From a virus, in the IMG/VR virus record IMGVR_UViG_3300023118_000012, positions 1 through 45,393 of that record: DNA of 45,393 nucleotides; one strand, 5' to 3'. The notes under the pieces were generated by a model, which searched no databases, was not told the origin of the DNA, and saw only the letters and a program-made list of their open reading frames with translations. Position 1 is the first letter of the stretch, and every line of letters starts with the position of its first letter. Made by a program: the position numbers and the translations under genes. This document shows, piece after piece, positions 8,922 to 45,393 of this stretch.

Positions 8922-9115
8922 GTGCGGGCGGCCGGTTTGAGCTCGCGCACCTTAACGGTGCCCCCGTGGACTTCTTGAAAATCCGGGCCGTGGTCCAAAT
9001 AGTTAGACTGCTCATTGACGAGCGTGCGCACCTCGCGCCGGGCCTGCGCCGCCGTCATCCAAGAGGGGACGGAGACGGTGAGGGACATCGTGAGCTGCTT
9101 GCGTGTTTTGGCCAT
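8918..9115 (-). CDS. Small protein, first gene of leftward small-gene operon
   Basis: 65 residues from ATG 9115. It begins with a basic MAKTRKQ, then a strand segment (MSLTVSVPSWM) and an amphipathic helix (AAQARREVRTLVNEQ). No family recognised. Its leader, GGTGGAG 8 bases before the ATG, is the same as that of the gene at 28270, including the first bases of the coding sequence (ATGGC). It is the first gene after the operator-promoter at 9147-9175. Confidence 0.68.
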   Translation of the reverse strand: MAKTRKQLTMSLTVSVPSWMTAAQARREVRTLVNEQSNYLDHGPDFQEVHGGTVKVRELKPAART

Positions 9116-9146
9116 GGGATTTGCTCCACCCGTGATTTGATGAAGC

Positions 9147-9175
9147 ATATGAACACGTGTTCAAGTAGCTGTCAA
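9147..9175 (-). promoter_or_regulatory. Sigma-70 promoter with TTGAAC-N4-GTTCAA operator (site 1)
   Basis: On the leftward strand: -35 TTGACA at 9175-9170, 17 bases, -10 TCATAT at 9152-9147. The palindrome TTGAACACGTGTTCAT covers 9164-9149, in the spacer and into the -10, so a bound protein would block polymerase. The -35 overlaps the TGA stop of the polymerase gene. Spacing, operator and leader are near-copies of the promoter at 28209-28237. Confidence 0.7.
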
Positions 9176-11424
9176 GCCTTCCGGTAGCGGTGGCCGCGCC
9201 AGCCGCCCGAGGCCCGTATCGGCCACCCTTGGGCCCATGGCGGCATCTCCGCCATAATGCTCTCATACTCCTCAATTGACCCCCAGCCGGCAGGCACCTC
9301 GCTCACGTTCTCATCATAGACGTGGAGCACGACGGGATAGCCTCGCGCCTCCAGTGCCGTGATGCCGTAGCGCTGTATGTCGTGCGCGGTGGCCTGCACG
9401 ATGTTCTCGGCGATGCGGCCGGCGTACGTCTTCATTGGCACCCAACCATATGCGCCATATTTGGAATTGCTGTTCCATGTCATATAGGTGATGTCGAGCG
9501 TGTCCGGCCGCATGGTGTTGGTACCGGGCCATAGACGCGGCGAGTGATACGGCAGCTCCCGGCCGCTCAAGAGGCGGATGATGAGGCAATCCCCGCGCAT
9601 GTAAAAGCTGATACCGTGGCTCTCAAACGTCATGTCCGGGTATTGGATGGCGTTGACGAACGCGCCCTCAAAACCGAACCGCTCCAGCCGATAGTCTCCC
9701 TTCCACGGCAGCCCCCGGGCCTGTCCGCCCCACATCTCCACGATCTCCGGCGAGGCATCGCGCCAGGCCAGAATGTTTCGTTTCACCTCATCGTCGGTAA
9801 AATTGGCCGTGCTATCGAACATGCGCCACGCGGGAAGCCACCCGCCAAACCCAAGCCCGAGCTCGGATACCTTGCCGATTTTTTGCCTGTCCGGGTGCTT
9901 GGAGTTGTTGGCGGCGAAATAGGCGGCGTATTCGTCCATGGTGCGGCCGGTGATTTTGCCGGCGCTCACGAGATAGATGTCCTCTCCACGTTCGAACGTC
10001 TCAATGCGCCAGCGGCAGCCGGCAAGCACCGCCGTAACGACCGCCTCAATGGCGCTATAGTCGCTGGCGAGGAGCTCCATGCCCGGGCCGGCAACGAACA
10101 TGCTACGCACGCACCCCGAGATGGTGAGCAGCGCGGAGCCGAAGAAATGCTCCACCACCGGCAGGGACCGCGTGGCCATGATCGGCAGCACGTCTTCAAC
10201 CGGCAGGTGGCCCTCTAGCCGCTTGGGCACGTCCGGCCATTTGTAGCGCTTGAGCCCGATGAGAGACGCCGCGCACCACGGGCACGCCGGCCGGATGGGG
10301 TATCGGGATGGCTTATCGCAACTCTCGCACCATACCATGTCCGGGCCGGCCTTGGGCAGGTTGAGCGGCTGCACAAGGTCACCGGTGGGGCGCCCGGTGC
10401 GCGCGCCATGGTGCACGATGATGTTGCGGACGCGATTGTCAGAGCTGGCGGTGCGGGCGATGGCGTACAGCTTCTTGACGCTGGCGGACCCCACTAGTGC
10501 CCGGACCTCCAGAACGCGCCGGCACTCCGCTGGTAGGTCCTCCCGGCCTAGGGCCTCATCTATGGCCTCGGCGTCTAGGCTCTCAAGGTGCACGCCCCGC
10601 CCCGCCAGCCATCCGCGCAGCGCGGCCACCTGCGTGGGCTCCAGGCCGCCGGTAAGCGTCCGCATCTCCCCGGCGTAATGGACTTGTGCCGCCTCCAGCA
10701 CCGCTATCATGTTGCGCACCGCGTCCATGTCCACGCCGATGCCGCGCCAGTTTATCGCTTGGTCGATTTGCCAGAACGCCAGCTCCGCCCGGCTCATGGG
10801 CATCATGTGGTCCGAAACGCCCACCTCCGCCAACACATCATCATCGCAATAGCTGTAGAGCCGTTCGGCCTCCTCCGGCTCCTCCTCGGGCAGGATGCGC
10901 AGGCGGGTGTCCTTCTTGGTTGGCTTCCGGGGCACGGAGAATTTGTCGAGCAACCGTTTACCGTCCGCGTCCTTGCGCACCGGTACCGGCAATACGTCAG
11001 TGAGGTTGCCGAGGGCGCCGGGGAGATTGTTGACGCGAGCCTTGGCCATGCTGCAGCGGAGCTGCGCGGCGGGGAGCTCGGGCCACCCATAGAGCCGGCG
11101 GCAGACGTGCCACCATATGAGCCGCTCAAACATGACGTTGTGACATTCCATCAGCCCACCGGCGGCGAGGTGGTCAAATAGAGCTTGGGGGTTCGGTTGG
11201 CCGGGACGCCAGCGCAGCACCATCCCGGCGGGCCAATGTGGCAAACGGTAAGAGAAGGTGAGGACGACCGTGCTGGGGTGCTCGGCGTACGCTGCCGCGC
11301 CTACCGCGCTAATGCCCTTCTTTTGCGCACCTGGGGGAGCCCGCCACGCGGTGCCATCCCATACCTGCCCGGCTTCCGAGTAGGTTTCAAAGTCGCCGGT
11401 GGCGTGCTGTTCGATCGCCCACAT
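9172..11424 (-). CDS. DNA polymerase, family A, with 3'-5' exonuclease
   Basis: 750 residues; replicates the phage genome. The exonuclease domain shows DFE (11-13), N96...E100 (CHNVMFE) and YSYCDDD (190-196). In the polymerase domain are HGARTGR (339-345), motif A ASDYSAIE with Asp455, the finger motif DRQKIGKVSELGLGFGG (512-528) and motif C HVYDEN with Asp704. Between palm and fingers a four-cysteine element (CESC 366-369 and CPWC 381-384) looks like a zinc ribbon. The GKVSELGLGFGG form is typical of phage polymerases rather than bacterial Pol I. AGGGG lies about 10 bases before the ATG. Last gene of the leftward replication operon; its stop is embedded in the next promoter. Confidence 0.93.
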   Translation of the reverse strand: MWAIEQHATGDFETYSEAGQVWDGTAWRAPPGAQKKGISAVGAAAYAEHPSTVVLTFSYRLPHWPAGMVLRWRPGQPNPQALFDHLAAGGLMECHNVMFERLIWWHVCRRLYGWPELPAAQLRCSMAKARVNNLPGALGNLTDVLPVPVRKDADGKRLLDKFSVPRKPTKKDTRLRILPEEEPEEAERLYSYCDDDVLAEVGVSDHMMPMSRAELAFWQIDQAINWRGIGVDMDAVRNMIAVLEAAQVHYAGEMRTLTGGLEPTQVAALRGWLAGRGVHLESLDAEAIDEALGREDLPAECRRVLEVRALVGSASVKKLYAIARTASSDNRVRNIIVHHGARTGRPTGDLVQPLNLPKAGPDMVWCESCDKPSRYPIRPACPWCAASLIGLKRYKWPDVPKRLEGHLPVEDVLPIMATRSLPVVEHFFGSALLTISGCVRSMFVAGPGMELLASDYSAIEAVVTAVLAGCRWRIETFERGEDIYLVSAGKITGRTMDEYAAYFAANNSKHPDRQKIGKVSELGLGFGGWLPAWRMFDSTANFTDDEVKRNILAWRDASPEIVEMWGGQARGLPWKGDYRLERFGFEGAFVNAIQYPDMTFESHGISFYMRGDCLIIRLLSGRELPYHSPRLWPGTNTMRPDTLDITYMTWNSNSKYGAYGWVPMKTYAGRIAENIVQATAHDIQRYGITALEARGYPVVLHVYDENVSEVPAGWGSIEEYESIMAEMPPWAQGWPIRASGGWRGHRYRKA

Positions 11425-11591: not shown

Positions 11592-12614
11592 TTAGGCCGG
11601 GGGGCTCATCATACTATTTTGCACGAGGAGGGCGTCGGTCCACCCGGCAGCGATGAGGGCTTCATAGGTCTGCCCCGCCGCCGCCGGCAGCATTACGCGC
11701 GCCGGAGCCGCCGGAGGGGGCGGCGGGGGAGCAGCGGCAGCCGGAGGGGGCGGCGGGGGCGGGGTGAAGGCCGCCGTGCTCGACGGGGGCTCCGCCATCA
11801 TGCCGGCGGCGATAAGCTGCACGTCGGTCCACCCGGCCGCCGTAAAGGCCTCATACGTCTGGCCACCGGCGGCCGGCAGCATGACGCGCGCCGGAGCGGC
11901 GGGGGGCGGCGGGGGAGCAGCGGCAGCCGGAGGGGGCGGCGGGGGCGCAGCGGCGACACCAGCGGCGGGAGGCGGCGGGGGCGCGGCTGCAGCGGGGCCA
12001 CCGGGGGCGCCGTCAAAAGCCTGCTCCGCCGTGGGGCCGGAGATGATAACTTCGCCGATGCGCTCCACTGAAATCTTGTCGAGATTGGAGTACATGCCGG
12101 CGTTCGCCGTGTTGCCGTTGGTGGCGTACAGACCGTACGGCCGAACATAATAGCCCCGGCGCAGCTCGCCCTTGTCGGTCACGAGCAGACGCTTGCCGTG
12201 CTCATCCATCTTGGTGACTTCGGGCGCATAACCGCTGGAGTAGCGGACCACCCAATGACCGGCGAAACCTTCTTTGGCGTTGTGCGGCTTGCCCTTGCGG
12301 TCGAGCCCGTCACCGTCAATGATTTTGCTGGAAAAGGTGGGGTCCGTGCAGCCGAACGACGGCGGGGTGTTATTGCCGCCACCTGGGAATAGCGCCGGCC
12401 ACGCCGCCACCATCTCCGCCTTGAGCTGGAGCAGGTAGGCGAGCGCAGCGGGGTCCGTCTTGGCGTAAGCTACGCCAATGAAGTACTCCACGCGCGGCTG
12501 CCCGGCATTGGCGCCGGTCTTCACGGTGAGCGGGTTGCCGTCATAGTCTTCATCGTTGGGCGTCCACGCATCGCCCTGCACCATTCGGCCCACGGGACCG
12601 GAATATTTGGTCAT
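11592..12614 (-). CDS. Probable ssDNA-binding protein (DUF2815-like) with duplicated C-terminal modules
   Basis: 340 residues. Residues 1 to about 195 resemble phage ssDNA-binding proteins of the DUF2815 kind (DGNPLTVKTGANAGQPR, YFIGVAYAKTDP, KDYKFG absent). After this come proline/alanine linkers of AAAPPPPP type and two copies of a roughly 40-residue module (PARVMLPAA, QTYEA, AAGWTD, MM). Linker-tethered C-terminal modules would allow contacts with replication partners, as the flexible tail of SSB does, but the partners are unknown. The modules are also repeated at DNA level. The gene sits in an operon with nuclease and polymerase, which fits a replication role. The family call is by pattern only. 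Confidence 0.68.
   Translation of the reverse strand: MTKYSGPVGRMVQGDAWTPNDEDYDGNPLTVKTGANAGQPRVEYFIGVAYAKTDPAALAYLLQLKAEMVAAWPALFPGGGNNTPPSFGCTDPTFSSKIIDGDGLDRKGKPHNAKEGFAGHWVVRYSSGYAPEVTKMDEHGKRLLVTDKGELRRGYYVRPYGLYATNGNTANAGMYSNLDKISVERIGEVIISGPTAEQAFDGAPGGPAAAAPPPPPAAGVAAAPPPPPPAAAAPPPPPAAPARVMLPAAGGQTYEAFTAAGWTDVQLIAAGMMAEPPSSTAAFTPPPPPPPAAAAPPPPPPAAPARVMLPAAAGQTYEALIAAGWTDALLVQNSMMSPPA
11633..11947. repeat. Tandem duplication inside the ssDNA-binding protein gene
   Basis: Two copies of about 125 bases, at 11633-11761 and 11822-11947, with a period close to 189 bases (63 codons). They differ by scattered substitutions and one codon, and are identical over the G-rich linker segment. A 26-base part of this linker (11716-11741) also occurs at 13975-14000 in the upstream gene of the same operon, so linker DNA has been copied between genes. 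Confidence 0.8.
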
Positions 12615-12630: not shown

Positions 12631-13746
12631 TTAGCCGAACGCCTTCATAGCGCTGGCTTCGTCAACGGGGGAAAGTTTGGCCTCCCCCTTCACCTTGGCA
12701 GCGTAGGAGCCCACGAGCGCCGGGTCTAGGCCCGCCTCGCGTGCTTGGTTGGGGGTGAGGAGCTTGGGTTTTGTCAGCTCCACGCCCATCATTTTGCCGA
12801 GGGCGACAACCTCCGCCTCCGGCTTGGTCCACTTTTCCGTCTCGCCATTGGTGATTTCCCACCCGGCGATACGCTTGCCCGCGCGGATATCCGCTTTAAG
12901 GCTCGCCTCCAGCCCCGTGGCCATCCCCTGGAGCCGCTGTTGCGCGGCCTGTACGTAGGAGAGCACGAGGCCCTTTTGCTCGGGCGTGAGCTCATTGGGC
13001 GCCGCCTGTAGCGACACGTCAATGGCGTTCTCCGTCGCGCGTTGAAACGCGGCGCAGCCTATCTTGGCGGTGCAGTCCCGGCAGTATGGGCCGGTATGGC
13101 ACGGAGGCCGCACGCCGCTGGCGGACACCGCCGCAACGGCGAGTTGCGCGATGAGGGCGAGAGCTTCCGCGCCGTTGCACGTCCATTCATTCTCCCACGC
13201 CCCAACGCGCGAGAAACAACGCGGCTGGTAAATGGTAAAATGAATGGTCCACGAGGCGTCAAGTATGACGCCATAGTGGTTGCAGACGCCGGCCAAGTAG
13301 TCGAGGAGCTGCCAGTTCTTGTAGACCTCAACGTAACGATGGCCAAACTTATAATCCTTGACCCAAATCTTACGGGCCCTGACGTTGATCGCGAAGAAAT
13401 CAGGAGTACCCCAATTGTCCTCATGAACCGTGGGCATGTATACCCGCGTCTCGACGTTGAAGCTGTCCGCCTCCATGGCCACGGCGAGGCAGTTTCCTAC
13501 CATCGTCGCGCCGCACTTGAGCATCTCCGCCGTCACCGGGTAGGCGTTGGGCGCGATTGCACCCTCTGCGTGCACGGTGCCGCCTATGGCCTCGCTCACC
13601 CACCAGTGCGCGGCGGTGCCTTCGCGAGCCTCCTCGCCGTCCTCGGGCTCGGGGTAGAGGGCGGCCATGGTGGGGTATGCCGGGCAACCGCCCGGCCCCC
13701 ACATTTCAGCCGCCGAGGGCGCGAGACGTGCGTGCGCCCCGCTCAT
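12631..13746 (-). CDS. PD-(D/E)XK nuclease, Cas4/RecB-like (DUF2800 type)
   Basis: 371 residues. Nuclease core: EGTAAHWW with His47, WGTPDFF with Asp116 and VKDYKFGHR with Asp131 and Lys133. Downstream, CHTGPYCRDCTAKIGC (about 215-230) gives a cysteine cluster like the Fe-S anchor of Cas4/AddB-type nucleases. Such phage enzymes are exonucleases that work in recombination with an ssDNA-binding or annealing protein. The flanking ssDNA-binding candidate and polymerase fit this role. The start overlaps the upstream stop by 4 bases (ATGA at 13746-13743). Confidence 0.85.
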   Translation of the reverse strand: MSGAHARLAPSAAEMWGPGGCPAYPTMAALYPEPEDGEEAREGTAAHWWVSEAIGGTVHAEGAIAPNAYPVTAEMLKCGATMVGNCLAVAMEADSFNVETRVYMPTVHEDNWGTPDFFAINVRARKIWVKDYKFGHRYVEVYKNWQLLDYLAGVCNHYGVILDASWTIHFTIYQPRCFSRVGAWENEWTCNGAEALALIAQLAVAAVSASGVRPPCHTGPYCRDCTAKIGCAAFQRATENAIDVSLQAAPNELTPEQKGLVLSYVQAAQQRLQGMATGLEASLKADIRAGKRIAGWEITNGETEKWTKPEAEVVALGKMMGVELTKPKLLTPNQAREAGLDPALVGSYAAKVKGEAKLSPVDEASAMKAFG

Positions 13747-14606
13747 GCTGTGAAGGCCCCGAGCTCCACCAGCTTGGCGTGGAACTTCGCCCGGGCCTCC
13801 TCGCTATCCTTGAGCGCCGAAACCGTGTCGATACCCGCCGCTTCCATGGCCGGCTTGAGATGCATACCGGTGAGCGTGCCGGCGCTTTGGGCGCTGGTGA
13901 TTTTCATCATGATGTTGGGGAAGTTGATTATGGCGCCAGTAGCAGCCGGCGGCGGGGGCGGAGGTGCAGTTGCCGGGGGCGGCGGGGGAGCAGCGGCAGC
14001 GGCCACCGGTGCGGGGGGCGGCGGGGGCGCGGGCAGAACACCGGTGGCGGCCTGCAACGTCATGGCGGTATTGGCCGCGCGAAGCTCCGCCATCACGGCG
14101 TCAAACTTGGCGTCCGGGGTGTTGCGCCGGCGCGCCCACGTGCCGTCCTTATTGGTGCCCTTGCTGGAGGAGTGGATGCGCTCATCCCACGGAATGCCGT
14201 TCTTGTCGCGCTCGCCAGCGGCCGGCGGGGTTGCCGCCATGTGATCGCCGCCGAACGCCTCCTCGGCGCTTATCTCCCCGCCGGTGCCGCCGGCTGCCAC
14301 GAGGGCGTCACCGAACGCCTCCTCGGCGGTGGGCTCCGGCGCGAGGCTCGCGGGCTCGGGCGCACTGCCGGCGTGCGTCACATTGCTCACGGTGGGGAGA
14401 CCTCCACCGCTCGATCCGTCTTGAAGCTTGGCGATGAGATCGGCGGGGCCATTGTAGCGCATGACGTCGCCGACGACTTCCATGGTGACATTGCCGGGCG
14501 CCAAGATGGTGGGCAGCACGGCGTCACCGTGAAGCACATGGAGGAGGGTTACGATACCCTTCGCCTCCGTTGGCGTCACGGCTCCGGTGTTAAAATGAAT
14601 GTCCAT
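13743..14606 (-). CDS. Phage protein with Pro/Ala linker, first gene of replication operon
   Basis: 287 residues. The segment IPWDERIHSSSKGTNKDGTWARRR (about 138-161) is a motif I have seen in uncharacterised phage proteins of replication/recombination clusters; its function is unknown. Before it lies an acidic linker with two AEEAFGD repeats; after it a long AAAAPPPPP linker, then a helical C-terminal domain (about 222-287). The linker shares a 26-base DNA segment with the next gene but one. Domain order suggests a flexible scaffold binding several partners. Start ATG at 14606; the upstream region is shared with the divergent helicase promoter. Confidence 0.7.
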   Translation of the reverse strand: MDIHFNTGAVTPTEAKGIVTLLHVLHGDAVLPTILAPGNVTMEVVGDVMRYNGPADLIAKLQDGSSGGGLPTVSNVTHAGSAPEPASLAPEPTAEEAFGDALVAAGGTGGEISAEEAFGGDHMAATPPAAGERDKNGIPWDERIHSSSKGTNKDGTWARRRNTPDAKFDAVMAELRAANTAMTLQAATGVLPAPPPPPAPVAAAAAPPPPPATAPPPPPPAATGAIINFPNIMMKITSAQSAGTLTGMHLKPAMEAAGIDTVSALKDSEEARAKFHAKLVELGAFTA

Positions 14607-16749: not shown

Positions 16750-16777
16750 TCCCCGCGTCACGAGAGGAGACCACCCG

Positions 16778-17107
16778 ATGCACCACACCCTTAAAATATG
16801 GCCCCGCTACTTTGATCGCGTCATCAGCGGCGAGAAGACGTTCGAGGTGCGCAAGAACGACCGCGATTTTCAGAACGGGGACACCATCCGGCTGCGCGAG
16901 TATGACCCCGGGCTGGTGGTTATGCCAGCGCCGGCCGCCCCGGGGATGCCGCCCCAAACTGGCGGCCACTCGGGCTACACCGGGCGCGAAGCTACCCTTG
17001 AGGTTGGGTACGTGCTGGTGGGTGGCTCCATGCTGCCGGCGGACGTTGTGGTGTTCTCCATTCGCGTGACGGACACCCATCTACCAGACGCCGAGGGCCT
17101 GCTTTGA
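16778..17107 (+). CDS. DUF3850/ASCH-like protein
   Basis: 109 residues. The start HTLKIWPRYFDRVISGEKTFEVRKNDRDF, then GDTIRLREYDP, matches DUF3850, a small ASCH-like fold related to RNA-binding PUA-like domains. These are common in phages as stand-alone genes; an RNA-binding role is assumed from the fold only. ATG 16778 follows the exact leader repeat of the preceding gene, which decides this start over one at 16688. Confidence 0.82.
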   Translation: MHHTLKIWPRYFDRVISGEKTFEVRKNDRDFQNGDTIRLREYDPGLVVMPAPAAPGMPPQTGGHSGYTGREATLEVGYVLVGGSMLPADVVVFSIRVTDTHLPDAEGLL

Positions 17108-19210: not shown

Positions 19211-19239
19211 TTGACGCGCTGTTCAAATTGCGCCTATAT
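19211..19239 (+). promoter_or_regulatory. Sigma-70 promoter with operator site 4, before the TetR-type gene
   Basis: -35 TTGACG at 19211-19216, 17 bases, -10 CTATAT at 19234-19239. Here the palindrome TTGACGCGCTGTTCAA (19211-19226) includes the -35 itself, unlike sites 1-3. The promoter at 39744-39772 has the same design. It drives the TetR-type regulator and the primase-helicase, so the regulator would control its own synthesis. Confidence 0.7.
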
Positions 19240-19264: not shown

Positions 19265-19609
19265 ATGACAAAACTAATCCCCTATGCGGGCAAGGAAGGC
19301 CCCACCAGTGACCGGGTGGCGGATCGTAACGAGCGCGCGCTTACTGCCGGGCTGGAGCTGGCTAAGCTGGTGGGTTTCCAGTTCGTCACGCTGCAGATGG
19401 TGGCGGATCAAACCGGCATGTCCAAGGCCAGCATTTTCAATTGCTTCGGTGGCTCCGTGCCGCTCAAGCGGGCCGTGCTGCGCGCTGCGATTGACCGGGG
19501 CATTATGGAGATTGTTGCGCAGGGGCTCGCCGACCGGCACCCCATGGTTCTTGCGGCGCCCGAGAGCGTCCGGCAAGCAGCGGTACAGCACCTCGCCGCT
19601 GCAGAGTAG
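19265..19609 (+). CDS. Stand-alone TetR-type DNA-binding protein
   Basis: 114 residues. Residues about 24-75 match the TetR N-terminal helix-turn-helix: ALTAGLELAKLVGF, TLQMVADQTGMSKASIFNCFGG, PLKRAVLRAAI. The recognition region MSKASIFNCF aligns with the usual VSKGTLYHHF. TetR proteins are normally about 200 residues; this one has only some 40 residues after the DNA-binding domain, so it lacks most of the ligand/dimer domain. It is preceded by an operator-containing promoter (site 4), with AGGAG 10 bases before the ATG. I infer it reads the eight TTGAAC-N4-GTTCAA sites of the genome; this is not proven. Confidence 0.85.
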   Translation: MTKLIPYAGKEGPTSDRVADRNERALTAGLELAKLVGFQFVTLQMVADQTGMSKASIFNCFGGSVPLKRAVLRAAIDRGIMEIVAQGLADRHPMVLAAPESVRQAAVQHLAAAE

Positions 19610-19614
19610 CAGCC

Positions 19615-22071
19615 ATGGAAACGCTTCCCGCGCCCTTGGCGCCGTTGGCCGCTTGGCCTCAATTCATCCTGTTTACGCTTGTGCCCAAAGAGGGCAAACC
19701 CGGGGAATATGACAAGGTACCGATGAGCGCCAAGCACGGCTACGGCGCCTCGACCACGGACCCCACGGATTGGACGGACTTCGTGTCCGCTGCCGCCTAC
19801 CTCAAGGCGCGCCCCGGCCGCTATCACGGCATCGGCTTCGTCTTCACCGAGCGCGACCCGTTCTTTTTTATCGATATCGACCATGCCCACGATGCCGCTG
19901 CCGGCTGGAGCGGGCTAAGCCAAGAGCTGCTTGCCCGGCTGCCCGATGCGGCCATGGAGGTGAGTAGCTCGGGCACCGGCCTGCACATCATAGGCTCCTG
20001 CACCAAGCCGCTCCAGCACCGCAAAAAGCACGTGCCTCTCGGCATTGAGCTGTATACCACGCAGCGGTTTGTGGCGCTCACCGGCACCCACGCCCGGGGC
20101 TCCGTGCTGTCACCATGCGACCTCCGCCTTATCCCGATCGTCGACCAGTATTTTAACCCGGCAGACGTCGGCCTTGGGCGCCCGGTGGAGTGGACGGATA
20201 CGCCGGTGCCGGAATGGCGCGGGCCGTCCGATGATGAGGAGTTGCTGCGCCGCATGCTCGCCAAGGATGAGCGCAGCGCGGCGGCAGCGTTCGGCGACAC
20301 GGGCCGCGCCACGCAAGTGACGTTTACCGCGCTATGGCAGGGCAACGCCGAGGAGCTCGGGTCCGCGTGGCCATCCGCCAAGGGGCAGGCCTATGATGCC
20401 TCCAGCGCCGACCAAGCTCTAGCCAACCACCTCGCCTTTTGGACCGGCCGCAACGCCGAGCGCATGCGCCGGCTGATGGAACGTAGCGCGCTGGTGCGGC
20501 CCAAATGGGAGGACCGCCCCGAGTATCTTGAGGGCACCATTCTCAAGGCGTGCGCCTTCGTCCGCCAGGTGTACGCCGCGCCGGATGCGCCGGCCGAACA
20601 GGTGGCCCCGGCCGTGACACAGGCGGAGGTGCAGCGCGTCGGGCTGGTGCCGCGCATTGCCGGCGTGTCGGGCATCATGACCATCACGGAGCAGGCCGAA
20701 CACTTCGCCGGATGCGTCTATGTCACTAGCCTTAATAAGGTGCTCACGCCGCGCGGGGAGCGTCTCGACCAAGCCCGCTTTGACGTGGTGTATGGCGGCT
20801 ATGAGTTTGTCAACTCGACCGATGGCAAGGATAGCACGGACAGCGCGTGGGCGGCCTTCACCAAGAGCCAAGCCTACCAGCCGCCCATAGTCGACGGGCT
20901 GTGTTTCCGTCCCGAGCTGGGGGCCGGCGGCATCGTGGAGGACGCGGGCAAGCGCTTGGCCAACCTGTACGTGCCGGTAGAAACCGCCATGATAGAGGGC
21001 GACCCGAGCCCGTGGCTCGACCATTTGGCGATCATGCTGCCGGTACCGAGAGACCGGGCCGTGCTGCTCAATTGGATGGCCAGCGTCAAGCAAAACCCCG
21101 GCATGAAAGCGCAGTGGTGGCCCGTCATCCAAGGCGGCGAGGGCAACGGCAAGACCTATATTCTCAATATTATGCGCCACGCGGTAGGTGCTCACTACGC
21201 GCATTTGCCCAATACCGACAAGATGGTGCGTAACGGCATGAATTTTAACGGCTGGATTGACGGCAAGTTGTTCCTAGGACTTGAGGAAATCTATGCCGCT
21301 AACCGTCGCGAATTCTTTGAGGGCTTCAAGACCACGGTAACCAACCGGTTTATACCTATCGAAGCCAAGGGAGTGGAGGAGCTCACCGGCGACAATCGCG
21401 CCAACGGCATCATAACCACCAACCATAAGGACGGCGTGCCGATCACCGGCAACAACCGCCGCTACGCGCCCCTGTTTTGCCACCAGCAAAGCAAGGCGGA
21501 CAGCGTGCGCGACGGCATGACGGATGCCTACTTTGCGCGGTTGCTGGCATGGTTCTCCGGCAAAGGCGAGTGGCTGCACCTGGGGCCGGACTATGGCTAC
21601 CGGGTGGTCAATCACTTCCTAGCGCACATGGTGCTGGCCGCCGACCTCGACCCCAACCAAGAGGCCATATGGGCGCCCGCCACCTCCAGCATTGAGGAGG
21701 CGATCGGCGCCTCACGCGGCCGGGCGGAGCAGGAGATACTTGAGGCCATCAGTGAGGGGCGATCGGGCTTTTGCGGAGATTGGATTAGCAGCATCCAACT
21801 CAACGCGCTCTTGGAACGCATCCGCGCGCCGGTGGCCCTCAACAAGCGCCGGGAGATGCTCGCCGGCCTAGGCTATGACTATCACCCCGCGTTGTCGGAT
21901 GGCCGCGTGCACAATGTGCTGCAGCCCGATAACGGCAAGCCCCGGCTGTACTGCCGGATGGGGTCCATATCTGCGCTCAACCTCAAGGACGCCAACAGCG
22001 TGGCCAAGGCATACACCCAAGCGCAGGGGGGCACGCCCGCGTCCGCATCAGCCGTAGGAGCATTCAAATGA
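19615..22071 (+). CDS. Prim-pol / SF3 helicase replication protein
   Basis: 818 residues. The N-terminal archaeo-eukaryotic primase-like domain shows FFIDIDHAHD with Asp87 and Asp89, SSSGTGLHII (118-126) and RFVALTGTH (151-159). After a linker, the C-terminal helicase (DUF5906/virulence-E-like SF3) has Walker A GGEGNGKT at 507-514, a KLFLGLEEI Walker B-like segment near 551-559 and ITTNHKDG as sensor motif. The protein would prime and unwind at the phage origin, with the family A polymerase extending. Directly follows the TetR-type gene, so its expression is likely under that regulator. Ends with 4-base coupling to the next gene. Confidence 0.9.
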   Translation: METLPAPLAPLAAWPQFILFTLVPKEGKPGEYDKVPMSAKHGYGASTTDPTDWTDFVSAAAYLKARPGRYHGIGFVFTERDPFFFIDIDHAHDAAAGWSGLSQELLARLPDAAMEVSSSGTGLHIIGSCTKPLQHRKKHVPLGIELYTTQRFVALTGTHARGSVLSPCDLRLIPIVDQYFNPADVGLGRPVEWTDTPVPEWRGPSDDEELLRRMLAKDERSAAAAFGDTGRATQVTFTALWQGNAEELGSAWPSAKGQAYDASSADQALANHLAFWTGRNAERMRRLMERSALVRPKWEDRPEYLEGTILKACAFVRQVYAAPDAPAEQVAPAVTQAEVQRVGLVPRIAGVSGIMTITEQAEHFAGCVYVTSLNKVLTPRGERLDQARFDVVYGGYEFVNSTDGKDSTDSAWAAFTKSQAYQPPIVDGLCFRPELGAGGIVEDAGKRLANLYVPVETAMIEGDPSPWLDHLAIMLPVPRDRAVLLNWMASVKQNPGMKAQWWPVIQGGEGNGKTYILNIMRHAVGAHYAHLPNTDKMVRNGMNFNGWIDGKLFLGLEEIYAANRREFFEGFKTTVTNRFIPIEAKGVEELTGDNRANGIITTNHKDGVPITGNNRRYAPLFCHQQSKADSVRDGMTDAYFARLLAWFSGKGEWLHLGPDYGYRVVNHFLAHMVLAADLDPNQEAIWAPATSSIEEAIGASRGRAEQEILEAISEGRSGFCGDWISSIQLNALLERIRAPVALNKRREMLAGLGYDYHPALSDGRVHNVLQPDNGKPRLYCRMGSISALNLKDANSVAKAYTQAQGGTPASASAVGAFK

Positions 22072-23123: not shown

Positions 23124-23294
23124 CTACTTGACGTGGCGGGTGGTAGGAGGAGAGGCCGGACAGGTGGCCTCGGCGTGGGCCTGCAGTTCCCGGGATAGCT
23201 CGCGCAGCACCCGGGCGGCGGACATGAACGCGCCGTCTTCGGCGTAGGTTTGGGCTAGCTCGACCCGTTCCTTAAATCTCTCGTGGATTGTCAT
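23124..23294 (-). CDS. 56-residue helical protein
   Basis: A short leftward gene read from the sequence: it starts MTIHERFKERVELAQTY and continues as one amphipathic helix pair (RVLRELSRELQAHAEA), ending TTRHVK. GGAG lies 8 bases before the ATG at 23294. It precedes the gene at 22398-23111 by 12 bases, with operator site 5 some 20 bases upstream. Function unknown. Confidence 0.65.
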   Translation of the reverse strand: MTIHERFKERVELAQTYAEDGAFMSAARVLRELSRELQAHAEATCPASPPTTRHVK

Positions 23295-23312
23295 GTGGTT
23301 TTCTCCATGAAT

Positions 23313-23328
23313 TTGAACACGCGTTCAA
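23313..23328 (-). promoter_or_regulatory. Operator site 5 (TTGAAC-N4-GTTCAA)
   Basis: A perfect 16-base palindrome, TTGAACGCGTGTTCAA on the leftward strand, 18 bases upstream of the ATG at 23294. The core promoter is less clear than at the other sites: a TATAAA-like -10 at about 23337-23342 would place the operator just downstream of the transcription start. Confidence 0.6.
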
Positions 23329-23525
23329 CCTCCCATAGTTTATATAAACATGCAAGTAATTTAAGGGGGCCACACTCCCGCCATAGTTGCCGCAATGTTG
23401 CCACGGTTATAAATTTATGTAAATTAAGGACTGTATCGGGTTACCGTCCATAAATATGGTACCCCGACAATTTAGCCCGTACGGGGTATAGCTAAGTGGT
23501 TGATTTTGCAAAGGAACCCATAGCT

Positions 23526-23723
23526 TACCCCGCATACCCCGATAACGAAAAGTTGGCTGTCCTGCGCGTAGCGTGGGCGCATGTGCGTGCGCTCGCGTAG
23601 GGCGATTTGCGTTTGGTACGGGGTACTGGGGTGTTTACAATTAATATAGTAGAGATATCAGATACTTGACTTATACCCCTATAACGGAAAATATGCGGGG
23701 TATCGTTCGGGGTATGCGGGGTA
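23526..23723. repeat. 17-bp perfect inverted repeat
   Basis: Left arm TACCCCGCATACCCCGA (23526-23542), right arm its exact reverse complement (23707-23723), 164 bases apart. The arms are built of the GGGGTA element that recurs through the region. Confidence 0.85.
23666..23694 (+). promoter_or_regulatory. Candidate promoter for the terminase operon
   Basis: -35 TTGACT at 23666-23671 and a modest -10 AAATAT at 23689-23694, 17 bases apart, about 80 bases before the small terminase ATG. It has no TTGAAC-type operator but overlaps the TACCCC/GGGGTA repeats. Confidence 0.35.
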
Positions 23724-23777
23724 AAACCCACTAAACTAGTAGACTATTTCTCCTCGGCGTAGATTTGGGCGTGACCA

Positions 23778-24551
23778 ATGCAGATGAAGCTTACCGACAA
23801 GCAAGAGAAGTTCGCACTCAACGTAGGTTTAAAGGGCATGACGCAGGCTGCCGCGTATGTCGATGCCTACGATGCTGGCCAGCTGTTACCTGACGTTGCT
23901 GCCAAACGTGGGCAGGGGGTGGCCGCAAACATGAAGGTCGCCACCCGTATCAACACGTTGCGTGAGGAACAGTCACGACTTGCCGTGCAAGACTTTAGCA
24001 TGTCCGTCAAAGAACTGATGAATACTTACATACAGATTTTCTTGACGGACCCGAACGAACTGATCAGTATGCGGGTCGGTTGCTGCCGCTACTGTTGGGG
24101 ACGGGGCGGCGGCTACCAGTGGCGAGACCGGGAGTACATGGATGAGCTGGCACGGGTGGAGAAGGCAAACGAGCGCCTCCCCGTCGAGAAGCATCAGCCG
24201 CTCCCCGCGCCGCAAGGCGGCTTCGGTTTCAACCTCGCCCTAGACCCCAACCCCGAGTGCCTGGAGTGCAGCGGGGAGGGCGTCATGCGGGTGGTCCCCA
24301 AGGATACCACCAAGCTGTCTCCCGGCGCCCTGCACCTCTACCGTGGCGTCAAGGTCACCAAGGACGGCGTGCAGGTGCTCTTTGGCGATAAGGAAAAGGC
24401 TCTCGAAAATATCGGGCGGATGCTGGGGGCGTTCAACGACAAGGTGCGCGTGGACATCACCGGCAAGCTCGCCGAGCTGCGCTTGACCACGAACGACCCC
24501 AACGAAGCGGCGGCGGCGTATCAAAAGATGGTTGCGGCCTTCTCAACCTGA
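23778..24551 (+). CDS. Terminase small subunit with DnaJ-like zinc motifs
   Basis: 257 residues. The N-terminal 70 residues look like a terminase small subunit DNA-binding domain (KLTDKQEKFALNVGLKGMTQAAAYVDAYDAG, then RGQGVAANMKVATRINTL). In the middle, CRYCWGRG (103-110) and CLECSGEG (161-168) are two CxxCxGxG motifs, as in the zinc domain of DnaJ. The C-terminal part is helical and ends with a likely oligomerisation segment. TerS selects phage DNA for packaging. ATG 23778 has a poor ribosome site; ATG 23784 is an alternative. The gene end overlaps the next promoter. Confidence 0.85.
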   Translation: MQMKLTDKQEKFALNVGLKGMTQAAAYVDAYDAGQLLPDVAAKRGQGVAANMKVATRINTLREEQSRLAVQDFSMSVKELMNTYIQIFLTDPNELISMRVGCCRYCWGRGGGYQWRDREYMDELARVEKANERLPVEKHQPLPAPQGGFGFNLALDPNPECLECSGEGVMRVVPKDTTKLSPGALHLYRGVKVTKDGVQVLFGDKEKALENIGRMLGAFNDKVRVDITGKLAELRLTTNDPNEAAAAYQKMVAAFST

Positions 24552-28117: not shown

Positions 28118-28199
28118 ATGAGGACCGGCCTGCGCGGAACCATGCTCCGGCGGCAGCTATGGAGCCAGTGTCAACCCGAGGGGTGCACCCGGTCCTCAT
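28118..28199. ncRNA. Candidate structured RNA or DNA element with 11-bp closing stem
   Basis: ATGAGGACCGG (28118-28128) pairs perfectly with CCGGTCCTCAT (28189-28199). Inside, GCTCC/GGAGC (28144-28148 and 28161-28165) and a second hairpin with GTG/CAC and ACCC/GGGT (28168-28188) give a three-way junction on paper. It lies between a terminator and the next promoter, so no obvious promoter reads it rightward. It has no tRNA features. It might be a small RNA, or a DNA site used in packaging or replication. Confidence 0.35.
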
Positions 28200-28208
28200 C
28201 TCCCCCGC

Positions 28209-28237
28209 TTGACAATCACTTGAACCCATGTTCAAAT
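28209..28237 (+). promoter_or_regulatory. Sigma-70 promoter with operator site 7
   Basis: -35 TTGACA at 28209-28214, 17 bases, -10 TCAAAT at 28232-28237; palindrome TTGAACCCATGTTCAA at 28220-28235 in the spacer and -10. About 67 bases from the -35 to the ATGGC of the next gene align almost without gaps to the leftward promoter at 9175-9147. It heads the long head-tail block. Confidence 0.7.
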
Positions 28238-28269
28238 GCATCATCAGTCAAACGGGTGGAGCAAATCCC

Positions 28270-28485
28270 ATGGCACTCACTTTCAAGCGTAGCAAAGACT
28301 TCCCCGAGTTTTATCAAGTCCGAGACGGCGATACGCTCATCGGCAGCGTGAAGCGCGTTGAGGGTTGGACGGTGCGAGGCGCCCCGGTTCGGTGGGAAGC
28401 CCGTCGCAAGGGCAGGTACCTCGGTTCGGCGGATACCCGTAAAGATGCGGCCGCCTTAATCCTGACGACAGCGGCGGGGGCGTGA
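28270..28485 (+). CDS. Small protein, unknown
   Basis: 71 residues. Pattern FKRSKDFPEFYQVRDGDTLIGSVKRVEG, then WEARRKGRYLGSADTRKDAAALIL, resembles small phage proteins made of a three-stranded sheet and helix. GGTGGAG lies 8 bases before the ATG, in a leader shared with the gene at 9115. Confidence 0.68.
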   Translation: MALTFKRSKDFPEFYQVRDGDTLIGSVKRVEGWTVRGAPVRWEARRKGRYLGSADTRKDAAALILTTAAGA

Positions 28486-39822: not shown

Positions 39823-40092
39823 ATGCAGATGACACTGGTAGAACGGCTAGAGACAGCCGCTCAAGCGATTGCGGAACGTGGGAACGGGGGCACGGCGGTG
39901 GATATCCTCGACGCCGTGAAGGTGCTGCGCGAGCACGAGACCAACGCCCGCAAGCGCCGTGACGTGATCGCGCTCGCCGCCATGAATACCCTTCTACCGC
40001 ATGCCGTCTATTCGGGCGGCGCGGACCCCGAGGCAATTGCTCGGGAGGCGTATGCCATGGCGGATGCAATGGAGACCGCACGCAATGCTTGA
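39823..40092 (+). CDS. Small helical protein, unknown
   Basis: 89 residues, helical (LVERLETAAQAIAER, then ILDAVKVLREHETNARKRRDVIALAAMNTLL, then AIAREAYAMADAMETA). GGAGG lies upstream. It sits between the tube terminator and the tail chaperone gene, where related phages do not usually have a gene, so it may be an added gene. Its end overlaps the next start by 8 bases. Confidence 0.65.
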   Translation: MQMTLVERLETAAQAIAERGNGGTAVDILDAVKVLREHETNARKRRDVIALAAMNTLLPHAVYSGGADPEAIAREAYAMADAMETARNA

Positions 40093-43400: not shown

Positions 43401-45298
43401 TGCGCGTCATCCCCCTCGCCACGGCCCCGCAACAGTCACTTTCGGTTCGGCTCGACGATAGCCGGCTCGTGCTTACCCTCAAGAAGGTCAAGGGCTGCAT
43501 GGTTGCGGACCTTGAGCGGGATGGGGAGTACGTCATTCGGGGAACGCGGGTGCTGGCGGGGGAGCCAATCATTCCCTATGCCTACCTTGAGGAGGGCAAT
43601 TTTCTCCTCCAGACGATCAACGATGAGCTCCCCGATTGGACGCAGTTCGGCGTGTCGCAAACCCTCCTCTATCTCACGGTGGCCGAAGTGACGGACCTAA
43701 AGCGCTACATCGATATTGACGACGCTACCCGGCTCGCCGAGGGCAGCGGGTACGCGGCGCCTACCCCCTCGGTGCTGGGGGCGGATGAGTTTGTTTATGG
43801 GGTGGCGGTGCAGGGCTCCACCATTGAGGTGGTGCTTGCTGGGGTAGTCTATACGCCCACGGTGAGCGCGGTGGACGGCTCGTGGAAATTCCCCGTACCG
43901 TTGCTGGAGAATGGCACCTACCCGATTGTAGCGCGGTACGTCACGCCGGTTGCAGGGCCGTGGTCCGAACCGTTCCTGCTCGTTATGCCCACGCCCTATC
44001 TCATCGCTCTGCGCGCGCAGCTCTTTGGTGAGCCTGCCGGTATGGTGCTGGACTATCTGCGCAACGCGGCGCTCGTGCAGCTCCCCGGCAATACATACCT
44101 CGGCCCGGCGAGTGGGCTGGGGGCGTTTACCCGCGCCACCACCAAAACGCGCCTTAATGCGGCGGGCATCCTGCAGTCCGTGCCTGTTAATGAGGAGGCG
44201 TTTGATTTCAGCTTGGCGGGGGCGGCGCTGGGCCTGTCGATGGAGGGGGCGCGCACCAACGTCATTCTCAATAATACCATGGTTGGTGGCGTAGCAGGAA
44301 CCCCCGGCACTTTACCGACCGGGGGTTGGAGTACTTCAGACGGCGGCCTTACTAGAGCACTTTCTTTTGGTGTTGAGGATGGCATTAATTATATCGATGT
44401 TAAATACGCCGGTATAGCGAGTGGAACAGAGGCGTTCATACTCCTTAGCACCGCCTATTCTGCTGCGATTGCTTCGGGATCGGCTTACACCGGCAGTGTA
44501 TTTGCGGGGTTTACCGATCTAATAACGCCCCCCAATTCTGCGGATCATCGTTTATATTGGGTGGCTGGTGACGCGAATGTATCCGGAACCGCAATACCTG
44601 TAAGCGTAATCCCGGCGGGGGCACTTAAAACCAAACGCATATTGCAGACACGCACCCCGACATTAGCAGCTACAGGGGTACAGACTAGGGTTCGATTTGC
44701 TCTAACCATCGGTAATTCCTATGACTTCACCATTCGCATTGGATTGCCTCAACTAGAAGCAGGTACTTTCGCCTCATCTCCAATCCTTACAGGCGGAACC
44801 ACCGCCACCCGCGCGCAGGATTTCCTGACCTTCGGGCCTACGGGTGGTCTACCCTTCGCAGGCTACGATCAGACACGCGGTGCCATTATCTGGGAAGGCG
44901 TGGTAGAGAATATTAGCGCCCTTACCATGGCTTTGTTTAGCATTTCCAATGACTCAATAACGGATACTATCCATGCAACTGTTTTAGCAACTGGAAATGT
45001 AAGGTTTCAGGTTATTGTGGACGGTGTTACACAAGCCCAAATATCCACCTTGGCTCCAATAGTTCCCAATACGCTTTTCCGCGTTCTGTGTCTGTGGGAT
45101 ACAAATCGATTTGAGATATGGCTTAATGGGGAAAGGGGCTCGGTGGATACCGCAGGCAGTATCCCTGCTTTGTCAGTACTAAAAATTGGACGTAGTGCAA
45201 CAAATGGCGCTGCACTATATGGCCACGTCGCCCGCCCGGTCTATTTCCCCACCCCGCCTTGGGATAAGGCGGCCCTCATATCGGCGCCCCTCGCATGA
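43400..45298 (+). CDS. Baseplate plug protein fused to a lectin-like domain
   Basis: 632 residues. The first about 100 residues (VIPLATAPQQSLSVRLDDSRLVLTLKKVKG, ERDGEYVIRGTRVLAGEPIIPYAYLEEGNFLLQT) match the Pam3-type baseplate plug, normally a protein of about 100 residues. Then follow an Ig-like region (about 130-200) and a large beta domain to the end that looks like a concanavalin/LamG-type carbohydrate binder (MEGARTNVILNN, GRSATNGAALYGHVARPVYF). The DNA for about residues 290-605 is AT-richer, with TTA, AGA and ATA codons rare elsewhere, suggesting an acquired host-range cassette. The stop overlaps the next ATG, which is the gene at 34. Confidence 0.8.
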   Translation: MRVIPLATAPQQSLSVRLDDSRLVLTLKKVKGCMVADLERDGEYVIRGTRVLAGEPIIPYAYLEEGNFLLQTINDELPDWTQFGVSQTLLYLTVAEVTDLKRYIDIDDATRLAEGSGYAAPTPSVLGADEFVYGVAVQGSTIEVVLAGVVYTPTVSAVDGSWKFPVPLLENGTYPIVARYVTPVAGPWSEPFLLVMPTPYLIALRAQLFGEPAGMVLDYLRNAALVQLPGNTYLGPASGLGAFTRATTKTRLNAAGILQSVPVNEEAFDFSLAGAALGLSMEGARTNVILNNTMVGGVAGTPGTLPTGGWSTSDGGLTRALSFGVEDGINYIDVKYAGIASGTEAFILLSTAYSAAIASGSAYTGSVFAGFTDLITPPNSADHRLYWVAGDANVSGTAIPVSVIPAGALKTKRILQTRTPTLAATGVQTRVRFALTIGNSYDFTIRIGLPQLEAGTFASSPILTGGTTATRAQDFLTFGPTGGLPFAGYDQTRGAIIWEGVVENISALTMALFSISNDSITDTIHATVLATGNVRFQVIVDGVTQAQISTLAPIVPNTLFRVLCLWDTNRFEIWLNGERGSVDTAGSIPALSVLKIGRSATNGAALYGHVARPVYFPTPPWDKAALISAPLA

Positions 45299-45393
45299 TG
45301 ACAGATATCAAACTGCGCTTTGCTGACGTCGCCGAGTATGAGGCGGCGGCCCCGTGGACAACCCGTGACGCCGAGACCGGCGAGTTGTCCACG
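45262..45393. repeat. End overlap, right copy (matches 1-126)
   Basis: 45262-45387 repeats 1-126 exactly. The last six bases, 45388-45393, differ at three positions from 127-132. It includes a truncated second copy of the small gene that starts at 34 (here 45295, cut off by the window end). Confidence 0.9.

Follow-up and report, generated by a model that had tools for sequence, protein, structure and literature searches.

This locus raises the question of whether a TetR-type regulator that ends shortly after its helix-turn-helix (HTH) is an intact repressor and, if so, which promoters it controls. The ORF at 19265-19609 (plus strand, ATG start) encodes a 114-aa product, hereafter mini-TetR. 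It lies in IMG/VR virus record IMGVR_UViG_3300023118_000012, the whole 45,393-nt stretch of which was analysed and is referred to as the window. A 126-bp sequence is repeated exactly and in direct orientation at the two ends of the record (1-126 and 45262-45387), which suggests that the window is a complete genome, circularly permuted or terminally repeated.

The TetR_N HTH that marks the DNA-binding domain of the TetR family is present in mini-TetR. Pfam TetR_N (PF00440) matched residues 26-62 (E=5.7e-5) at 23.3 bits, 0.7 bits short of the 24-bit cut-off; relatives passed this profile (L022, 2e-11; CP-T1, 3.7e-9; PD0307, 1.5e-9). The phrog_8723 profile matched residues 19-112 (E=2e-15), spanning the HTH and a conserved tail. 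A sequence-only reading had described a full TetR HTH followed by about 40 residues; the HTH stands, and the remainder is longer: beyond the HTH, whose predicted helices reach residue 61, lie ~53 residues that form a normal TetR helix 4 (64-78) and short helices at 81-89 and 100-113. Mini-TetR is not a canonical ligand-responsive TetR carrying a C-terminal ligand-binding/dimerisation domain of about 120-150 aa, because only these 53 residues follow the HTH, only two short helices lie past helix 4 and the next gene begins 6 nt on. The ATG of that gene, which encodes a primase-helicase, lies so close to the mini-TetR stop codon that there is no room for a TetR C-terminal domain. Continuing the tetR frame past its stop soon met another stop, with no remnant of a longer protein. 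A frameshift hiding a lost C-terminal domain next door, named beforehand as one observation that would count against a minimal TetR without effector domain, was looked for and rejected on both grounds. The gene is short and intact, and the minimal architecture was borne out.

AlphaFold2, supplied with a 14-sequence alignment, confidently modelled mini-TetR as a compact fold of about six helices (mean pLDDT 89, pTM 0.77), with helices at 15-36, 43-50, 54-61 (recognition), 64-78, 81-89, 93-96 and 100-113. PDB matches were full-length TetRs, aligned mostly across the HTH region and with E-values no better than 1e-3, and the best by sequence was Mce3R (PDB 9b7y). In BFVD, viral proteins of 97 aa and 166 aa superposed on mini-TetR at 0.9 A over about 95 residues. 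The mini-TetR HTH came closest to ordinary bacterial TetR proteins.

The homologue search at matching length that the sequence-only reading had called for revealed single-HTH members between 77 and 128 aa long, many of them annotated "TetR". Using mini-TetR, the CP-T1 member and the PD0307 member as tblastn queries, we found homologues in 21, 87 and 36 phage records, respectively; the three sets share entries and contain GenBank/RefSeq duplicates, which puts the total at roughly 100 records. Klebsiella phages are the largest host group (65 among the 87 CP-T1-query records), and the family extends over phages of Vibrio and Edwardsiella, Klebsiella Jedunavirus and others, among them the coliphage ZCEC13. 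Every member tested matched phrog_8723, down to E=3e-36, a family that PHROGs labels "unknown function". The single-HTH genes occupy comparable replication blocks and directly precede the primase gene in MSW-3, PVN06, B2 and L021, among others. Rather than a lone oddity, mini-TetR belongs to a phage family that is widespread and, in many records, already carries the TetR label; its gene is not truncated and not unique. Nor is it a stand-alone DNA-binding domain, as single-HTH members conserve a short C-terminal tail beyond helix 4 (IVAQGLA..HP.A..AP..L+..A in an alignment of 14 members). Because the IVAQGLA motif served to find contig homologues, part of the tail conservation seen in alignment A4 reflects that selection; the same tail is also present in independent phage records. 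A viral-contig scan with the single mini-TetR protein gave no match and alignment A1 was too diverse as a query; contig homologues were reached via the primase neighbour and the tighter alignments A2 and A5. Two scans of 84,980 bacterial and archaeal genomes returned no relative, which is weak evidence of absence because each used one short peptide pattern. MR14, considered as a phage lacking the gene, was rejected as such when the family profile found gp52 (77 aa).

The sequence-only reading had also counted eight operators, one within the gene's own promoter, and the window agrees. At up to 2 mismatches, TTGAACNNNNGTTCAA matched nine sites against 0.75 expected, a number reached in 0/100 shuffles, and seven of the nine adjoin gene starts; the intragenic sites at 1744 and 41344 are probably due to chance. 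Together with a weaker site at 24548, the promoter-proximal set comprises eight (Table 1). An operator in the regulator's own promoter, common but not universal in the TetR family, was found at 19211-19226.

Table 1. Coordinates of the mini-TetR locus and putative operators in the window, and of double-HTH relatives in their own records.
Feature	Coordinates	Strand	Remarks
Mini-TetR gene	19265..19609	+	HTH residues about 26-62, recognition helix 54-61, helix 4 64-78, conserved tail 81-113
Primase-helicase, NrS-1/DUF5906 type	19615..22071	+	directly downstream of mini-TetR gene
Putative operator, 1 mismatch	9149..9164		between -35 TTGACA and -10 TCATAT, minus strand
Putative operator ATGAACACATGGTCAA	14650..14665		divergent promoter region, SSB/exonuclease/polymerase operon (-) versus helicase operon (+)
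Putative operator TTGAACCTATGTTCAA	16413..16428		both half-sites perfect; on -10 TATGTT, promoter of small-gene operon starting 16453
Own-promoter putative operator TTGACGCGCTGTTCAA	19211..19226		on -35 TTGACG (18-bp spacer, -10 TATATG); 38 nt to mini-TetR ATG
Putative operator TTGAACACGCGTTCAA	23313..23328		both half-sites perfect; 19 nt upstream of 56-aa ORF (23124-23294, -)
Putative operator CTGACGCTATGTTCAA	24548..24563		weakest, 3 mismatches; upstream of gene starting 24589
Putative operator TTGAACCCATGTTCAA	28220..28235		both half-sites perfect; downstream of -35 TTGACA; gene likely starts 28270
Putative operator TTGACGCCGCGTTCAA	39744..39759		on -35 TTGACG (18-bp spacer, TAGATG); gene at 39823
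Double-HTH relative, 168 aa	L025:9492-9998
Double-HTH relative, 167 aa	L029:37-540
Double-HTH relative, 166 aa	L044:4987-5487
Double-HTH relative, 205 aa	L036:2941-3558
Double-HTH relative, 140 aa	L048:6001-6423

Three layouts recur among these sites: 19211 and 39744 lie on the -35 element, 14650 and 16413 on the -10 (for 14650, the plus-strand TATGAA, 17 bp from TTGACG), and 9149 and 28220 past a TTGACA -35 towards the -10. No clear sigma-70 promoter was found at 23313, and only a poor one at 24548. Because the putative operators overlap core promoter elements, repression is the effect to be expected from general knowledge of bacterial promoters. The promoters at 9149 and 28220 are paralogous, including leader and ribosome-binding site, which also suggests that both genes begin further downstream than the program-called ORFs do, at about 9115 instead of 9148 and at about 28270 instead of 28228; the former gene is small and has no assigned function. 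Near-identical promoter copies with operator and leader (TTGACA..operator..GGTGGAGCAAATCCCATGG) span 9095-9185 (-) and 28198-28290 (+), which suggests that this promoter cassette spreads together with small genes.

Several other features of the window were noted. The operon downstream of the 16413 operator includes a DUF3850/ASCH-type putative RNA-binding protein (16763-17107). Beside the 23313 operator lies an AT-rich, largely non-coding segment of about 480 bp (23300-23777) with GGGGTAT/TACCCC repeats, possibly a replication origin or regulatory region. On the minus strand, GC-rich tandem repeats in the genes for the SSB-like protein and a neighbour (11592-12614 and 13743-14606) encode long Pro/Ala-rich repeats.

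In related phages, the commonest motif is TTGAC-N6-GTCAA, a 16-bp palindrome with outer TTGA/TCAA that is present in 8-15 copies in many genomes. Counted at up to 1 mismatch and compared with a reversed, non-complemented control (observed/control), the motif gave 15/2 in JD001, 13/0 in CP-T1, 13/4 in MSW-3, 13/4 in PVN06 and 13/2 in MR14. Among viral contigs, the counts were 15/0 (G004), 11/0 (G002), 10/0 (G007), 10/2 (G005), 9/1 (G003), 9/3 (G001) and 8/1 (G012). Among gaps of 0-15 separating TTGA from TCAA, the commonest in genomes with an excess was exactly 8. The sites are concentrated near promoters (12 of 15 in JD001, P=9.9e-6; 11 of 13 in CP-T1, P=2.5e-5; 11 of 13 in MSW-3, P=4.5e-7), often 40-55 nt upstream of a gene start. 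In the same three phages, a site also occupies the divergent region between replication operons, like the 14650 site of the window. Of 25 members inspected, one being a double-HTH chain, 13 have a site with at most 1 mismatch 13-53 nt upstream of their own start, and the palindrome often falls on the regulator's own -35 box. Whole-genome palindrome counts in GC-rich genomes had yielded mainly codon-driven-looking palindromes, a problem solved by restriction to intergenic sequence. An unbiased intergenic search then recovered the motif, scoring 12.6 in MSW-3 (shuffled maxima ≤5.0), 11.9 in CP-T1 (≤3.9), 10.6 in PVN06 (≤5.4) and 7.3 in the window (≤4.8). The short intact gene, the conserved family, and the operators with their promoter positions and conservation were thus all obtained by direct computation, and the independent phage genomes back the minimal-TetR reading far more strongly than the window alone. 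As a separate observation, several operator sites in CP-T1 (L016) flank opposite-strand small-gene clusters within the structural region. The GC-rich repeats that PMC3391216 puts forward as attachment sites were considered as operator candidates, but proved to be unrelated tandem repeats.

Both the operator and the protein vary across the family. The window half-site is TTGAAC (TTGAAC-N4-GTTCAA), unlike most relatives, and the recognition region reads MSKASIFNCF in place of the usual V[SA]xGxVxNAF; this pairing is a single case in sequence comparison and not proof of co-variation. Other palindromes occur in mini-TetR phages, namely ACTTTC-N5-GAAAGT in PD0307 (L014) and ATCRTAANTTAYGAT in Psp6 (L018), and these are possibly diverged operators. 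For the TTGAC palindrome, no clear motif was found in the single-HTH members B2 and AeroV_348 (counts 0 and 1). Silvanus, with a weak family-profile match only, showed no TTGAC-N6-GTCAA excess (2/6). Some relatives carry two HTHs in a single chain (Table 1). Their N-terminal unit is devoid of the tail helices and is missed by Pfam; the L029 protein gave a confident two-unit model (pLDDT 89.6). Genomes encoding double-HTH chains showed little or no palindrome excess (4/4 in G006, 2/3 in G013, 0/1 in G017, 2/0 in G016 and 4/0 in G015), and SppYZU01, with a 166-aa double-HTH homologue, gave 4/0.

Taken together, mini-TetR is likely a Cro-like, autoregulated, effector-free repressor that shuts early genes via 16-bp palindromes. 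Two copies of the protein would bind the palindrome (TTGAAC-N4-GTTCAA in the window, TTGAC-N6-GTCAA in most relatives), placed over the -35, spacer or -10 of early promoters, its own included. Transcribed early alongside the replication genes, mini-TetR would, on accumulating, close its own promoter, the divergent SSB/helicase promoter region and scattered small-gene promoters to RNA polymerase, and the outcome would be a self-limited early shut-off resembling that of lambda Cro. We infer binding of the sites, dimerisation, repression and timing from the genomic arrangement described above. The protein would presumably be constitutive and may dimerise in a new way, as the sequence-only reading had supposed. 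What survives of that reading as the best account is the effector-free minimal TetR, autoregulated and acting at many promoters; the bare domain and the isolated oddity do not.

The same sites could instead serve mini-TetR as an immunity or pseudolysogeny repressor, silencing the infecting genome in some cells and not timing early expression. Such a role would suit operators that cover replication and many early operons, as those of immunity repressors do, and CP-T1, with 13 sites, is reported to be temperate-capable with a genome devoid of any known lysogeny genes (PMC3391216). We consider it quite unlikely, as a protein that turns down its own promoter is closer to Cro in its logic than to a repressor that has to be maintained, several phages of the family have been described as lytic (138, phiPLPE), the pattern-limited scans of bacterial and archaeal genomes returned no relative, and a search of the window with PF00589 returned no tyrosine integrase.

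The palindromes could belong to a different regulator, from phage or host, or they could be overlapping -35 boxes, with the mini-TetR target elsewhere. TTGAC begins the sigma-70 -35 box, so that half of each site could be promoter sequence alone; binding by mini-TetR is predicted, some single-HTH members have no TTGAC palindrome, and the TTGAAC half-site of the window departs from that of most relatives. The -35 resemblance does not account for the GTCAA half or the fixed spacing, which are retained at non-divergent promoters also. The motif lies just upstream of the mini-TetR gene in many lineages and shows little or no excess in genomes with double-HTH homologues, leaving this explanation very unlikely. 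Decay of a full-length host-derived TetR regulator, to which the bacterial affinity of the HTH might point, is extremely unlikely and already contradicted by conservation: independent members share the short length, the tail and a similar neighbourhood, and the downstream gene starts immediately after the stop codon. A more far-reaching version of the repressor model, which we regard as rather unlikely, would be an undescribed phage-wide system in which effector-free mini-TetRs with a new dimer mode co-evolve with a 16-bp operator on dispersed early operons, double-HTH chains replace the palindromic dimer in some lineages, and CP-T1 owes its immunity or pseudolysogeny to the same regulator.

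Known regulators share parts of this Cro-like arrangement. The bacterial TetR family uses palindromic operators and is commonly autoregulated; TetR, KstR, EthR2 and RutR have helices 1-4 including the HTH in common with mini-TetR, but carry the C-terminal ligand/dimer domain that it lacks, and solved relatives match mainly over the HTH. Mce3R has two TetR modules per chain, comparable to the chains of L029, L044, L025 and L036, but each of its modules keeps a C-terminal domain absent from the phage chains. Lambda Cro is a tiny, sensor-free, autoregulated DNA-binding repressor that turns down early promoters; it belongs to an unrelated sequence family, so that the likeness is one of function, the mini-TetR fold being TetR-type and its proposed operators genome-wide. 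Cluster A mycobacteriophage immunity repressors bind many stoperators per genome as monomers at asymmetric sites and also stop elongation (PMC9283540). Mini-TetR resembles them in its many dispersed putative sites, which are palindromic and at promoters, unlike stoperators. The phage "TetR transcriptional regulators" of phrog_8723 (CP-T1 gp14, phiPLPE gp14, JD001, MSW-3 ORF58) share family, length class, HTH, tail and replication-block position with mini-TetR. The TetR label in many phage records is thus already known; tetR-like genes were noted in phiPLPE, CP-T1 and 138, and co-option of an osmotic-stress regulator was suggested (PMC3391216). In the open-access literature, we found no description of the short architecture, operators or regulon of mini-TetR phages.

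Early promoters and operons may now be predicted directly from sequence in these phages, including small-gene insertions within the late region. Because half-sites and recognition helices both vary in the family, it could also yield small orthogonal repressors for synthetic circuits. The mini-TetR system is a candidate explanation for the temperate behaviour of CP-T1. For phrog_8723, the analysis offers a function and a testable regulon across roughly 100 phage records, many of them Klebsiella phages, in which the TetR DNA-binding fold is apparently at work without a sensor/dimer domain.
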